Assembly (NCBI GenBank): GCA_027021615.1 | Contig: JALUTY010000017.1 | Location: 62,001 to 126,000 of the forward strand | From: a bacterium | GTDB taxonomy: Bacteria > Desulfobacterota > Deferrisomatia > Deferrisomatales > Deferrisomataceae | DNA: 64,000 nucleotides | Reading direction: 5' to 3' | Part shown: positions 4,197 through 35,679 of the stretch, in pieces | Layout of the letters: the number at the start of each line of letters is the position of its first letter | How positions within the stretch are numbered: position 1 is the stretch's first letter | Translations under genes and position numbers: made by a program | Notes under the pieces: model-generated | The model's input: only the letters and a program-made list of their open reading frames with translations | Database searches by the model: none | Told to the model about the DNA's origin: nothing

Positions 4197-5696
4197 ATGC
4201 TTCGCTTCCGCATTCGGTGGCTTGCCATCGTTCTGCTGCTGGTTCCCGGGGTAGCCGGGGCCCAAGACAACCGGGTCGTGGTGCTCCCGTTCGAGGTGTA
4301 CAACGCGCCGGACCTGGATCCCCTGAGGCCGGGCCTGGAGGCCATGCTGGCGGGAAGGCTGGACGGGCCGGGTTACACGGTCGTCCAAGGGGCAGAGCCC
4401 CAACCGTCGGACTGGACCGTCCGGACCACCATCACCCGTCTCGGGTCTACCTACAGCGTGGACGGGGCTCTGGTCCCGCCGGCCGAAAGCCCTGCCGAGG
4501 GGGCCCGATCGTACCGCACGGTGGGGGCTACCGAGGAGATCCTGCCGGCTCTGGAGGCCCTGGCCCAGGAGCTCAAGGCCTACCTCACCCAAACCCTCCC
4601 CGCGCAGCCCCCCGCCACCCCGGCCCCGTCTCCTGCTCTCCGGGAGGAACCCGCCCCCGCGACGCCGGCCTCCGGGCCCACACCCCCGGCGTCGGGGGTG
4701 CAGGCTGCTGTCGCCTCGCCCCGGGTGGGCCCGCTGGTGGACGGCAACGCCCTGGGGCTTACGGCGGCCGACCTGGACGGCGACGGAATCACGGAGATCG
4801 TGGTTCTGGGCAACCAGGTGCTGACCGCTTACCGAGACACAGGGACCCGGTTCGAGCGGCTCTGGGAGGTCCCGGTGCCGCCGGGCATCACACCAGCGTG
4901 TATCTCGGCCGCAGACCTGGACGGCAACGGGCGGCCAGAGCTGTTCGTTGCCGGCATGAGCGGCACCCAGCCCACCAGCCAGGCCCTGGAGTGGTTCGGA
5001 TCGGCCCTGGCCTCCAAGGGCGAACGGATCCCTGGGTTTGCACGGGCGGCCGACCCCTCCGCCCCGGTGGTGCTCCTGGCGCCGCGCGGCACGGGGAAGG
5101 ACCTGTTCTCCGGCCGCCTCCTCACGCTCCGGTGGGGAGGGGCCGGATATGTGGCCGGAGACCCGCTCCCCCTCCCGGGGGCCGCGCTGCCGGCCAACGC
5201 CGACCGGGTCCACCTGAATCCGACCGCCTTCGGCTGGGCGGTCACCACCCAAGGGGACCGGCTGCGGCTGTACGACGACCAGGGGAGCGAGATCTTCGAG
5301 AGCGCCGACGCGGTGAAGGGGAGCCGGGTGGCCCTGCAGGGGGAGGAACGGATCCGGGACTACCAGGACGAGGACTTCTATCGGGTGCACGGTCGCACCC
5401 TCTCGCGCCTCTCCCAAGGGAGCACACCGGAGTTCGTGCTGTTCAAGAACTATGGGGGCATCTCCCGGGTGTTCCGGCGCATCGCCTCGTTCTCCTACGC
5501 CCAGCTCCTGGTGTGGAAGTGGGACGGGCTCACCATGGTGCCTGTGGCCGAGGGCCCCAAGGTGCCGGGAGCCCTGGTGGACCTGGACTGGGACCCCGCC
5601 TCCCCCGGCCGACGGGTGTACGCTCTGCTGGTCCGGAGTGAGGGGACCCTGTTCCGGAAGGACCGCCACCGGATCCTGGTGTACGAGTTCCGCTAG
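4197..5696 (+). CDS. secreted FG-GAP/VCBS repeat protein
   Basis: 499 residues with a clear Sec signal peptide (basic R-F-R-I-R-W, then a leucine/valine core, cleavage likely after A-G-A). The next 150 residues resemble periplasmic FlgO-like domains, followed by a Pro/Ala-rich linker (about residues 130-180). Two calcium-binding FG-GAP-like loops, A-D-L-D-G-D-G and A-D-L-D-G-N-G, follow near residues 190 and 240. An extracytoplasmic beta-propeller is the likely fold; the function is unknown. Its TAG stop forms the first CTAG of the target duplication around the repeat element that follows. Confidence 0.7.
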   Translation: MLRFRIRWLAIVLLLVPGVAGAQDNRVVVLPFEVYNAPDLDPLRPGLEAMLAGRLDGPGYTVVQGAEPQPSDWTVRTTITRLGSTYSVDGALVPPAESPAEGARSYRTVGATEEILPALEALAQELKAYLTQTLPAQPPATPAPSPALREEPAPATPASGPTPPASGVQAAVASPRVGPLVDGNALGLTAADLDGDGITEIVVLGNQVLTAYRDTGTRFERLWEVPVPPGITPACISAADLDGNGRPELFVAGMSGTQPTSQALEWFGSALASKGERIPGFARAADPSAPVVLLAPRGTGKDLFSGRLLTLRWGGAGYVAGDPLPLPGAALPANADRVHLNPTAFGWAVTTQGDRLRLYDDQGSEIFESADAVKGSRVALQGEERIRDYQDEDFYRVHGRTLSRLSQGSTPEFVLFKNYGGISRVFRRIASFSYAQLLVWKWDGLTMVPVAEGPKVPGALVDLDWDPASPGRRVYALLVRSEGTLFRKDRHRILVYEFR

Positions 5697-30349: not shown

Positions 30350-30634
30350 ATGATCCGGGTTCTGATCGAACGCAGGGTGGCCGACGGGATGCTCGAGTCC
30401 TACCAACTGGCCCTGCGGACCATGCGGGCCCACGCGGTGCAACACGATGGGTACATCTCGGGGGAGACGCTTCGAGACATTACGGACCCCGAGCACTTCC
30501 TGGTGATCTCCACCTGGACCGACCGGACCGCCTGGGAGCGCTGGACCGCGTCCGAGACCCGGCACCGGATCATGGCCAAGATCGCCCCCATGCTGGAGGC
30601 GCCCGAGCGGATCACCGTGTGGGAGCCGGTTTGA
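30350..30634 (+). CDS. ABM-domain (antibiotic biosynthesis monooxygenase-like) protein
   Basis: 94 residues with the dimeric alpha/beta-barrel pattern of ABM proteins: I-R-V-L-I-E-R-R-V start, H-D-G-Y-I-S-G-E-T-L, and F-L-V-I-S-T-W-T-D-R-T-A-W-E-R-W. Such small proteins act on quinones or haem or have unknown roles. GAAAGGAGG precedes the start. Its 3' end overlaps the convergent selenoprotein gene by 23 bp. Confidence 0.78.
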   Translation: MIRVLIERRVADGMLESYQLALRTMRAHAVQHDGYISGETLRDITDPEHFLVISTWTDRTAWERWTASETRHRIMAKIAPMLEAPERITVWEPV

Positions 30635-31457
30635 CCCCTCCCCTCCCGAACCGCCAGGCCTCCCAGTCCGGATCGGCGTAGCGCTCACGCCGCCACCGTA
30701 GGCCCGCGTCCTCTATGGTGCCGGGCTCCCGGGCCGAGAACAGCACCGTAAACGCCCGCCGCAGCACCTCGAGGTGCTGGGCTCGGTTCCCGGGCTCACC
30801 CAGGGCGTGCCCGAACGGGAAGCGCACAAACAACGCCCGGGGCGGCGGGGTCTTCTCCGTGATCTCCCGCACCACCGAAAGGGCCACCGTGGCCACCCCC
30901 GCCGCCTCCACCGCTCTCGCCGCCAGCCCCACGGACCGGTTGCAGATACCTCAAGCCGGCACGAGCAAGGCGTAGTCCACGTGGGCACCGGCGAGCCGCC
31001 GGGCCACCTCCGGGGCCGAGCGCCGCCGCAGGGTCTCGACGTGGGCCCCGTCGATGTGCCCCATGAACGAGTAGCCCACCCCGTGGAGCCGGCCCACCAC
31101 CCCCGCGGCCACGGCCTCGCGCAGGCGCCCAGCCGGGAACACCAGGTTCAGGTCCCTCTCGGCGTCGGCGTGGTCGTAGTAGTCGTGGGTGATGATCAGA
31201 TCCGTGGGGGCCGCGTTCATCGGGACCTCCCGGAACGACGGGTCCCCGCCCGGGTCAACCATGTCGAAGGGGGCCTGGGTACGCAGATGAACCCCGCCGG
31301 TGGTCACAACGGCGAGGGTCGCCTCGGCCAACGGCTTGGTCACAGGGGTCCAGGGGATCGGCTCGGTGTCGGCGGCGAGACCCCGTGCCCACCTGGCGGC
31401 GAGCCCCGGGAACCGGGTGAACACCTTGGCCACCATCCGGTCCTTCCAACCGCCCAT
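30612..31457 (-). CDS. GrdB-family selenoprotein with in-frame TGA
   Basis: 281 residues if the TGA at 30951-30953 is read as selenocysteine (residue 169); otherwise it would be split into pieces of 168 and about 112 residues. Both pieces are in the same frame and both match the glycine/sarcosine/betaine reductase selenoprotein B-like family: I-P-W-T-P-V-T-K-P-L, H-D-Y-Y-D-H-A-D-A-E-R-D-L-N, Y-S-F-M-G-H-I, then L-L-V-P-A-U-G-I-C-N-R-S-V-G-L (U-x-x-C), A-A-R-A-V-E-A-A-G-V. A hairpin suited as a bacterial SECIS lies 11 bases downstream of the TGA. AGAGGAG precedes the ATG. Small members of this family outside the glycine reductase complex have no known substrate. Confidence 0.85.
30923..30939 (-). 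promoter_or_regulatory. candidate bacterial SECIS hairpin
   Basis: On the coding strand CCGGTCCGTGGGGCTGG folds into a 7-bp stem (CCGGTCC with GGGCTGG, two G-U pairs) and a GUG loop. The loop lies about 20 nucleotides after the TGA, within the spacing SelB normally requires, and contains the expected G and U. Confidence 0.6.
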
Positions 31458-31850
31458 GGGACGACTCCTCTTGCGATCGGTGACAAGTGGCGAGTGACGG
31501 GGAAACAGCCGGCCGCCTTGCCGCCCTGCAACGATTCACGGCCGCTTATCGGTGACGGGTGAGATGCGGGAGGAACCGATCTCGTTGCAAGTCTACCGGC
31601 ATCCCTGGCCCGCGCCAGCCTGGCCCCGGGACCCCGTTCCTTCCCCCACACTGACCGGTTTGGGCCCGTCGGCGTCGAGCACGGGGGGCGTGCCCCCAAC
31701 CAATCCCCCTCGCCCCACCTTTCCCACCTTCACGCAGGAGTTTTCCATCTCTACACAAGATATTTACTTGACGAAGGCGCTTGCATTCTTGAGCTGGATA
31801 ATATAGATTTTGAACATCATTTCCCCTGTTTTCACACATACGGTGCACCA
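31458..31850. other. gap with 7-bp-type repeat and AT-rich leader of the sulfur cluster
   Basis: Positions 31478-31498 carry a 7-bp-period sequence (GTGACAA, GTGGCGA, GTGACGG), repeated in part at 31552-31560. From 31741 to 31850 the DNA becomes unusually AT-rich for this genome, with ATAATATAGAT near 31797. This is where the promoter of DUF2061-cysH-cysD should lie, but no single -35/-10 pair is convincing. Confidence 0.4.
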
Positions 31851-32094: not shown

Positions 32095-32826
32095 ATGAGC
32101 CGATCGTTCCCTCCTCCCCCCGTTCTGCCCCCCGGCACGCCGGCCGAGACGATCCTGCGGATCGGCCTCGAGCGGGCCGGAGGCCCCGTGGCCCTGGCCT
32201 GCTCCTTCAGCCTAGAGGACGTGGTGGTGCTCCACATGCTCACCTCGCTCACGGCCCGTCCCCTGGTGTTTGCCCTGGATACCGGCCGGCTGCCCGAGGA
32301 GACGTACGAGATCGCCGAGACCGTGCGGGCCCGTTACGGGGTGGCTGTGCGCTGGTACTTCCCGGATCGAGAGGCCGTGGAGCGGCTCGAGACCGACAAG
32401 GGCCTGTTCAGCTTCCGCGACAGCGTGGAGGACCGGCGCGAGTGCTGCCGCATCCGCAAAGTAGAGCCGTTGGGCCGGGCCCTGGCCGGGCTGGCCGGCT
32501 GGATCACCGGTCTCCGCCGGGAGCAGAGCGTGACCCGCACGGCCGTGGCGCCGATTGAGGAAGACCGGGCCCACGGCGGCATCTGGAAGATCAACCCCCT
32601 GGCGGAGTGGACCTGGGAGCAGGTGGAGGCCTATGCAAAGGACCACGGGGTGCCCGTGCACAAGCTCCACCGGGCCGGGTACCCCTCCATCGGATGCGCG
32701 CCGTGTACCCGGGCGGTCCGGCCCGGCGAGCACCCTCGGGCCGGGCGCTGGTGGTGGGAGGACCCGAAGAACAAGGAGTGCGGCCTGCACGTGGCCCCAG
32801 AACCGGCCCGGCCGGAACCGACCTAA
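32095..32826 (+). CDS. cysH: assimilatory APS reductase (CysH type with [4Fe-4S])
   Basis: 243 residues. Substrate-loop motif S-F-S-L-E-D-V near residue 40, the catalytic E-C-G-L-H near the end, and both cysteine pairs (C-C-R-I-R-K and C-A-P-C) of the iron-sulfur form that reduces adenosine 5'-phosphosulfate. Enzymes that need PAPS lack these pairs, so APS is the expected substrate; this fits the absence of a CysC kinase domain in the neighbouring CysN. AAGGAGG precedes the start. The product sulfite goes to a sulfite reductase. Confidence 0.93.
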
Positions 32827-32836
32827 CGAGGCGACC

Positions 32837-33640
32837 ATGAGAGATCCCCTGACCGAACTGGAGAACCAGAGCATTTACATCTTCCGAGAGGCCTACCGGA
32901 AGTTCGAGAGCCTGGCCATGCTCTACTCCGTGGGCAAGGACTCCACGGTGATGGCCCACCTGGCCCGGAAGGCGTTTTTCGGCCGCATCCCGTTCCCACT
33001 GGTGCACATCGACACCACCTTCAAGTACCCCGAGATGATCGAGTTCCGGGATCGGATGGTAAGGCAGTGGGGTGCCGAGCTGATCGTGGGCAGAAACGAG
33101 GAGGCCCTGGCCGCCGGCATGAGCCCCGACCGGGGCCGGCTGGTCTGCTGCGAGGCCCTCAAGACCCAGGCCCTGTCCCAGACTCTCGCGGCCCACGGGT
33201 TCCAAGGGCTGTTCCTGGGCATCCGGCGCGATGAGGAGGGCAGCCGGGCGAAGGAGCGGGTGTTCTCGCCCCGCGACGAGAACTTCGAGTGGGCCTACAA
33301 GGACCAGCCCCCCGAGCTGTGGGACCAGTTCAACACCGACTTCGACCCGGGCACCCACGTGCGGATCCACCCCCTGCTGGGGTGGACCGAGATCGACATC
33401 TGGCGCTACATCGAGCGGGAGGGGGTGGAGATCTGCCCCTTGTACTTCGCTCGGGACGGCAAGCGGTTCCGGTCCTTGGGGTGCATGCCGTGCACCGGGG
33501 CGTTCCCCTCCAATGCCTCCACCGTGGCCGAGATCATCGAGGAGCTCCAGGCCACCAAGACCCCCGAGCGGGCCGGCCGGGCCCAGGACCAGGAGAACGC
33601 CTACGCCATGCAGAAGCTCCGCGCCCGGGGTTACATGTGA
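32837..33640 (+). CDS. cysD: sulfate adenylyltransferase small subunit
   Basis: 267 residues of the ATP pyrophosphatase fold: Y-S-V-G-K-D-S-T-V near residue 30, I-D-T-T-F-K-Y-P-E, and S-L-G-C-M-P-C-T-G near the C-terminus. Together with CysN it makes APS from sulfate and ATP. It lies 10 bp after cysH. The usual tight cysDN pairing is broken by a 476-bp gap full of repeats. Confidence 0.95.
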
Positions 33641-34116
33641 GACAGAGTTCAGCTCCAGTAGACCGCGAGGCGGCCCGTTTGCGAGGAAACAACTCGAACC
33701 GATCCCTGCACAGTTTCGGCAGTGGGGCATGGGGTCTGCTTCCGGCCGCGTGCGAAGCCGGCCATGAGATTCGCCGCGCAGGCACGGGGCACCAACGGTG
33801 GTTTTATGGCAGTCCGGCCGGGGACCGAACGATTTCACGGTGCAAGCGCTGGAGGCGCTGCGCGGCGAGCCAAGGAGCCGCACGCGGCGCTCCAGCAGAC
33901 CCCATGCCCCCGAGACCGTGAAGTGACGCCAAAGAGGCGGGGCCATGCTTGGAAACACTCTGGAATCAAGTAGGTTTTCATGCGTCCTAGCGTCCTAGCC
34001 TCCCAGCGTCCTAGCGGAAATTACTTGGAAGAGTTCAGTGGACAGAAATCAGGGAGAGCGGGGAGCTGCCAGCCTTCCAGCTTTCTAGCTTTCCACCGCC
34101 CCAGAGGGGGTTCCCG
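33641..34116. repeat. repeat-filled gap splitting cysD from cysN
   Basis: No gene. It holds a family-B element (33724-33910), an 8-bp array (33979-34018: CCTAGCGT, CCTAGCCT, CCCAGCGT, CCTAGCGG), a 7-bp-type GAGTTCAGTGGACAG block (34029-34050) and a second 8-bp array (34071-34096). Confidence 0.7.
33724..33910. repeat. family-B inverted-repeat element with perfect 17-bp arms
   Basis: 187 bp bounded by GGGGCATGGGGTCTGCT and its exact complement. Much of the interior matches the element at 42974-43167 in the opposite orientation, including GATTCGCCGCGCAGGCACGG. No gene is inside, although fragments of open frame are shared between copies because the DNA is conserved. Confidence 0.75.
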
Positions 34117-35679
34117 ATGAGCCGACAAGACACCCTTCGCATCGTGATCGTGGGCCACGTGGACCACGGCAAGTCCACCCTGATCGGCCGGCTGTTCTAC
34201 GACACCGGATCGATCCCCGAGGTCCGGTACCGGGAGATCGAGGAGACCTGCCGGCGGCAGGGCCGCCCCTTCGAGTTCGCGTACCTCATGGACGCCCTGG
34301 AGGAGGAGCGGGAGCAGAACGTCACCATCGACACCGCCCAAACCTTCTTCCGGTGGGAGGGCCGGTCCTACGTCATCATCGATGCCCCGGGCCACAAAGA
34401 GTTCCTGAAGAACACGATCACCGGCGCGGCCAGCGCGGACGCGGCGGTGCTGCTGGTGGACGGGGTGGAGGGGGTGCGCGAGCAAACCCGCCGCCATGCC
34501 TACATCCTGTCGCTTCTGGGGATCCGCCACGTGCTGGTGGCGGTGAACAAGCTCGACAAGGCCGGCTATGACCGCCGGGCGTTTTTGGCCGCGGACAACG
34601 CGGTGCGGTCGCTGCTCCACTCCCTGGGCATCGCACCGGAGCACGTGATCCCCATCTCGGCCCGGGAGGGCGAGAACATCGTCCAGAGGCTCGGTCACAC
34701 CCCCTGGTACGACGGGCCCACGGTTCTCGAGGCCCTCCACACCCTGGGCGGAGCCGGATCCGAGGAGACCCTGCCTCTGCGGTTTCCGGTTCAGGACGTG
34801 TACAAGTGGGACAACCGCCGCCTGTACGCCGGGCGGGTCGAGACGGGACGGGTGCGGGTGGGGGACGAGGTCCGGTTCTTCCCGTCGGGCCGCACGGTGC
34901 GGGTCCGGACCATCGAGCGGTGGGGGGAGCCCCCGCTCGAGGAGGCCCGGGCCGGGGACTGCGTGGGGTTCACGTTCGACGAGGAGCTGTTCGTGGAGCG
35001 CGGCGAGGTGATGGCCCACCCGGACCATGCCCCGGCCGTGGCCCGAGAGGTCCGGGCCAGCCTGTTCTGGCTCGGCCGCATCGCCCTGGAGAAGGGCAAG
35101 ACGTACCTGCTCAAGACGGCCACCACCGAGATTGAGGCCGAGTGCGTGGACATTGAGGACCGGATCGACGCCTCCACCCTGGAGGTGCGCGAGCGCCACG
35201 CGAACGTGCTCGAGAGCCCCGAGGTGGGCAACGTGCTGCTGCGGCTCAAGCGCCCCGCCGCCGTGGACGTGTTCCAGGACAACCCGCGCCTGGGCCGGTT
35301 CGTGCTCCAGGACGGCCGGTTCATCGCCGGCGGCGGCATCGTGCGGGAGACCCGGGTGGCCGGCGGCGCCCGGGCCGCCCAGGTGATCCACCTGGACCGC
35401 CAGTTCGCCACCGAGCCCGACGGGTACGTGGTGGACCTCATCCGGGAGCGGGGCGAGGTGGAGTTCGAGGTGACCCCCCACTTCCTCGATACCCTTTCGG
35501 CCGGAAACCGGGTACTCTTCCGGCTCCGGGGCCCCGAGCAGGTCACGCCGGTGGCCCTGCTGGCCTACGAGCACGACATGGAGTTCACGTTCCGGCGCAC
35601 CGACGACGGGGTGGCCCTGGTGTTGTGGCGGCGCCCCGGGCCGAGCGCCTCGGTTCCCCTGGAGGGACTCGGACTGTAG
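34117..35679 (+). CDS. cysN: sulfate adenylyltransferase large subunit (GTPase)
   Basis: 520 residues with translation-factor-type GTPase motifs: G-H-V-D-H-G-K-S-T (G1), D-A-P-G-H (G3), N-K-L-D (G4), followed by beta-barrel domains. GTP hydrolysis drives APS formation by CysD. There is no C-terminal APS kinase domain, in keeping with direct APS reduction. Its ATG at 34117 follows GAGGGGG. Confidence 0.94.

Follow-up and report, generated by a model that had tools for sequence, protein, structure and literature searches.

The window analysed here, a stretch of 64,000 nucleotides from a bacterium of the Deferrisomatales (contig JALUTY010000017.1, positions 62,001 to 126,000), carries on its minus strand a PrdB-like selenoprotein gene of 281 codons plus stop (30612..31457), in which an internal UGA is very probably read through as selenocysteine (Sec) rather than as a stop. 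On balance we are inclined to regard this gene as one of a widespread group of PrdB-like selenoenzymes that have no pyruvoyl partner, that would perform a Sec-dependent reduction distinct from amino-acid reduction, possibly on sulfur or arsenic compounds, and that would have been misfiled as proline or glycine reductases.

Reading frame and the in-frame TGA

The minus-strand frame opens at an ATG at position 31457. Immediately 5' of this ATG the purine-rich stretch AGAGGAG (31464..31470, minus strand) can be read directly in the sequence and is a likely ribosome-binding site. The frame runs for 168 codons to a TGA at 30951-30953 (minus strand), and then continues in the same phase for 112 sense codons to a stop TGA at 30612-30614, giving a total of 281 residues with the putative Sec at residue 169 in the motif U-G-I-C. 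The second residue of this UxxC motif, located by alignment, is Cys172, encoded by a TGC codon at 30942..30944 (minus strand) and invariant in 36 aligned sequences. An earlier note on this DNA had described two in-phase minus-strand frames parted by a single TGA, and its coordinates, phase and lengths were all reproduced. An annotation that takes the UGA as a stop truncates the gene to 168 residues, which makes the gene a clear candidate for correction.

Conservation of the TGA was examined by scanning genomes with the joined protein, which yielded 47 related loci, assigned by their record titles to the Deferrisomatales, Desulfuromonadales, other delta-proteobacteria, Methylomirabilota, Acidobacteriota, Binatia, Nitrospinota, Rokuibacteriota and Marinimicrobia. 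The search used six patterns and did not favour TGA, because one of the six assumed Cys codons at residue 169. Apparent duplicates (L009/L082, L010/L079, L013/L089, L014/L087 and L041/L071), recognized by identical scores, counts or tree positions, were not counted twice. One of the homologues, L041, is from Pelovirga terrestris, a relative that can be cultured. In a codon alignment of 49 genes, comprising the 47 relatives, the window gene and a paralogue from its own genome, residue 169 is encoded by TGA in 48 and by GGA in one; none of these 49 subfamily genes has Cys in this column. In Terrisporobacter and Enterococcus, the annotated prdB genes, which adjoin prdA, likewise have TGA in this column. 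Cys forms were surveyed outside the phylum in a plasmid collection, and a distant Roseomonas homologue has TGC (Cys) at the TGA column. The earlier note had called for U or C at this site; the Sec codon was indeed conserved, both in the subfamily and in annotated prdB, whereas Cys was absent from the subfamily itself and was seen only in the Roseomonas protein. In a profile search of 297 genomes of the phylum, the strong matches (above about 240 bits) each cross an in-frame TGA, with no full-length stop-free form among them; a few are interrupted by a further stop and are possibly decayed genes. Judged by its codons, the subfamily is represented in the genomes searched by Sec forms alone, one Gly codon excepted. 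A scan of viral contigs returned no relatives.

Two of the related loci call for separate comment. In L030 the codon at 5508-5510 is GGA (Gly) with the downstream hairpin unchanged, pointing to a recent mutation or an assembly error. The record containing L053 is labelled Klebsiella pneumoniae, but its gene clusters in the tree with a Binatia bin and L029, and the record is probably a mislabelled metagenome bin.

Codon differences indicate that purifying selection acts both before and after the TGA, with the downstream half the more conserved. In comparison with the relative L083, the region upstream of the TGA has 23 amino-acid-changing and 24 silent codon differences in 168 codons, and the region downstream has 6 and 20, respectively, in 111 codons. 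An AlphaFold model, made with Cys substituted for Sec at residue 169, predicts a single compact domain that spans the TGA (mean pLDDT 92.6, pTM 0.91). In this model a strand (162-166) is followed by residue 169 and then by a helix (172-185), and the strands at 189-194 and 207-210 are encoded after the TGA. The resulting strand-to-helix turn at residue 169 resembles many thiol redox motifs and, taken with the UxxC motif, is the predicted redox site. Searches of solved structures by sequence and by fold gave generic alpha/beta matches alone and no specific match; the best fold match, microcystinase C (VIA Z 8.4, rmsd 3.9, 152 aligned), was itself generic and was excluded as evidence.

The hairpin and the selenocysteine machinery

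A bacterial-type SECIS hairpin is predicted from folding and covariation at 30923..30939 (minus strand). It consists of a 7-bp stem with a GUG apical loop, placed after an 11-nt spacer from the TGA such that the loop begins 18 nt past the UGA, and the 17-mer has a folding energy of -8.7 kcal/mol. The bSECIS rules specify a loop of 3-9 nt, a stem of 4-16 bp, a G in the first two loop positions, a loop located 16-37 nt from the UGA and an MFE no higher than -7.5 (PMC13188914), and the hairpin agrees with these rules in loop, stem, distance and energy. Two of the seven stem pairs in the window's own copy are G-U. Rfam has no family covering the hairpin.

Free energy was rejected as proof of a SECIS element, as, in this GC-rich DNA, shuffling the 54-nt stretch gave an equally good fold in 57 of 200 cases. 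Because the folding energy is not significant against shuffles, covariation was used as evidence instead. Across 44 distinct sequences, stem pairing is found in 96.1% of cells. Two-sided changes occur at five of the seven stem pairs, in 26 cells compared to 6.7 in shuffles. The covariation score, again over 44 distinct sequences, is 0.347, compared with 0.164 for shuffles and no more than 0.134 for versions with slid partners; the shuffles ignore relatedness, but the slid versions keep relatedness and fail too. The 17-base hairpin 11 nt past the TGA that the earlier note had proposed was thereby recovered, as an element that conforms to the bSECIS rules and has a covarying stem.

A selenocysteine system had also been predicted elsewhere in the genome, and searches for it detected selA (582.9 bits against a cut-off of 268), selB (336.7 against 242), selD (356.4 against 125) and a tRNA-Sec with the anticodon TCA. 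The selD gene (L057; G000:C78:237566-238486) has one in-frame TGA, which probably makes selenophosphate synthetase a selenoprotein in this genome as well. The same genome contains a second PrdB-like gene, the paralogue L070 (G000:C37:1574-2305, minus strand), in which an in-frame TGA (VPVUPVC) is likewise accompanied by a matching hairpin (CGTGTCC-GTG-GGACACG); two further genomes of the genus also have paralogues of this type.

According to the mechanism that we propose, SelB bound to the hairpin just 3' of the in-frame UGA would deliver Sec-tRNA(Sec) to the ribosome, allowing synthesis of a 281-residue U-x-x-C protein. In the absence of selenium, translation would stop at residue 168 and the last strands of the sheet would be lost. 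By analogy with PrdB and GrdB, Sec169 at the strand-to-helix turn would most likely attack and reduce a small electrophilic substrate, Cys172 would resolve the product as an Se-S bond, and cellular dithiols (thioredoxin or similar) would return the site to its reduced form.

Alternatively, the TGA might be a true stop or result from a sequencing error, the locus then being a pseudogene or encoding two proteins, the second initiated from a GTG at 30932. This GTG does open a 106-amino-acid frame after the TGA, and the relative L030 has GGA in place of the TGA codon, but no ribosome-binding site is apparent before GTG 30932, and TGA is found in 48 of the 49 aligned genes and in the same column of annotated prdB. 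The predicted fold spans the break, selection appears to act on both halves and the SECIS stem covaries, all of which further argue against either a stop or an error. Sequencing error is very unlikely because the same TGA codon is present in those 48 genes, and because a single-contig genome of the same genus (G021) also has the TGA gene. Taken together, we consider a stop or an error to be extremely improbable, and we favour readthrough with Sec at residue 169.

Family, partner and neighbouring genes

The profile matches place the protein in the GrdB/PrdB superfamily, as a PrdB-like protein rather than a full-length GrdB. PF07355 was matched at 28.8 bits (gathering cut-off 22) by the C-terminal part alone, corresponding to profile positions 212-345 of 347, and TIGR01917 at 42.7 bits (cut-off 602.2), also by the C-terminal part only. 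The best curated model was TIGR04483 PrdB, at 158 bits and below the equivalog cut-off of 300; PrdB of Terrisporobacter, with which the window protein shares 38% identity over 218 residues, scores 424.7 on this model. The tree places the two PrdB genes on a fully supported branch of their own, separate from the clade of the window gene. GrdB and the Roseomonas homologue lie on long branches that meet, and the deep order of the tree was not interpreted. The 'GrdB-family' selenoprotein of the earlier note thus stands with respect to the superfamily and the UxxC motif, with the name GrdB giving way to PrdB-like.

We also searched for the pyruvoyl-forming partner subunit using PF09338 (GrdE/PrdA), a model that in a control detects both PrdA and GrdE. 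PF09338 had no match in the gene's own genome (134 contigs and an estimated 97.8% complete, so that a missed gene is possible), and a direct search of this genome with PrdA found nothing. Nor was there a PF09338 match in the single-contig genome G021 or in the sampled genomes of the same genus, family and order. Among the 297 genomes of the phylum, PF09338 is present in 12, all of which also have a match to the family profile; in most of these 12, a lower-scoring (GrdB-type) match lies on the same contig, no more than a few kilobases away. Of the 70 phylum genomes in which the family profile has a match, 58 are without PF09338. Two testable defining features of D-proline reductase are therefore lacking, because the TIGR04483 score is below its cut-off and PrdA was not found, although the chemistry may still be related to that of D-proline reductase. 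Because the PrdB cut-off was not reached and the pyruvoyl-forming partner was not found, the protein most likely acts as a stand-alone, partner-free redox enzyme with a UxxC motif, and not as an amino-acid reductase, an assignment that we hold to be probable.

The gene neighbourhoods of the relatives give suggestive evidence of a shared thread of sulfur and arsenic chemistry. In 11 of the 47 relatives, mainly in the Desulfuromonadales and Deferrisomatales, the gene is preceded on the same strand, at a distance of no more than about 280 nt, by a rhodanese gene. In relatives from the Methylomirabilota and Binatia, and in those adjacent to them in the tree, ArsS (432.8 bits against a cut-off of 300), a TIGR04283 arsenosugar glycosyltransferase (270.2 against 182), VTT membrane proteins and a MerA-like FAD enzyme are among the products encoded nearby. 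A small cytochrome c gene precedes the PrdB-like gene in a further group of relatives. Arsenosugar-type genes were noted near L042, L046, L038, L049 and L053, in combinations of ArsS, TIGR04283, VTT and MerA-like oxidoreductase that vary among these loci.

The window gene itself, flanked by a convergent ABM-domain gene (30350-30634) and by opposite-strand genes starting at 32095, stands alone, with no rhodanese gene, arsenic gene or operon of this kind beside it. The gene at 32095 (plus strand) tested as a PAPS/APS reductase. The plus-strand region 32095-35679 looks like an assimilatory sulfate reduction set, with further genes that are CysD-like and CysN-like as judged by reading only.

If the gene encoded a true subunit of D-proline reductase (PrdB) or glycine reductase (GrdB), it would function in amino-acid fermentation. 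This reading draws on the best curated match being TIGR04483 and on the identity to Terrisporobacter PrdB, but a score of 158 bits falls short of the cut-off of 300 and of the 424.7 bits of Terrisporobacter PrdB itself, and the search for PF09338 was negative from the genome up to the sampled order. The distribution across the phylum also stands against it, as the 12 genomes with PF09338 are all family-positive and the 58 without it make up most of the family-positive set. We consider this reading very unlikely and retain the stand-alone redox enzyme. A narrower form of the preferred explanation would make the substrate an arsenic or sulfur compound, within a detoxification or sulfur-relay pathway. 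The rhodanese genes directly upstream in 11 of the 47 relatives are consistent with this proposal, as are ArsS, the TIGR04283 glycosyltransferase, the MerA-like FAD enzyme and the VTT proteins near other relatives. These neighbourhoods vary by lineage, however, and none of the genes in question is found beside the window gene, so we put the narrower form forward only tentatively, as a possibility with the odds against it; judged from the genes near its relatives, the substrate class is perhaps a sulfur or arsenic compound.

Comparison with known selenoproteins

Among known systems the closest is the D-proline reductase of clostridia, and the window protein has the same domain, size class, and UGA and UxxC column as the Sec subunit of that enzyme, PrdB (TIGR04483). 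It differs from PrdB in scoring at about half the equivalog cut-off, in having an N-terminal extension, in lying on a separate branch of the tree and in having no PrdA partner gene found in its genome. With GrdB of glycine/sarcosine/betaine reductase (PF07355, TIGR01917/TIGR01918) it has in common the C-terminal domain and the region of the Sec motif; the GrdB models, however, have an additional N-terminal part and a length of approximately 430 residues, their gene lies near GrdE, and the window protein is below the TIGR cut-offs.

Sec-containing 'PrdB' proteins with a UxxC motif have been on record since 2005. These include 42 Sec-containing sequences from the Sargasso Sea (PMC1088965), 235 Sec and 110 Cys sequences from GOS (PMC2398784), and proteins of Anaeromyxobacter and Geobacter uraniireducens (PMC1794560). 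They are of the same PrdB type with UxxC, some of them delta-proteobacterial, and the window gene probably belongs to the same group, a comparison based on their published descriptions. The consulted portions of these papers call the proteins proline reductase and mention no test for PrdA. The absence of a pyruvoyl partner in this group seems to be unstated in the literature as far as these sources extend, and earlier selenoprotein-family work (Haft and co-workers) could describe the subfamily. The names 'proline reductase' and 'glycine reductase selenoprotein B' are likely to mislead when applied to a subfamily that is mostly without the partner that defines amino-acid reductases. Bacteria are already known to have selenoproteins of this family, to which the window gene adds a member.
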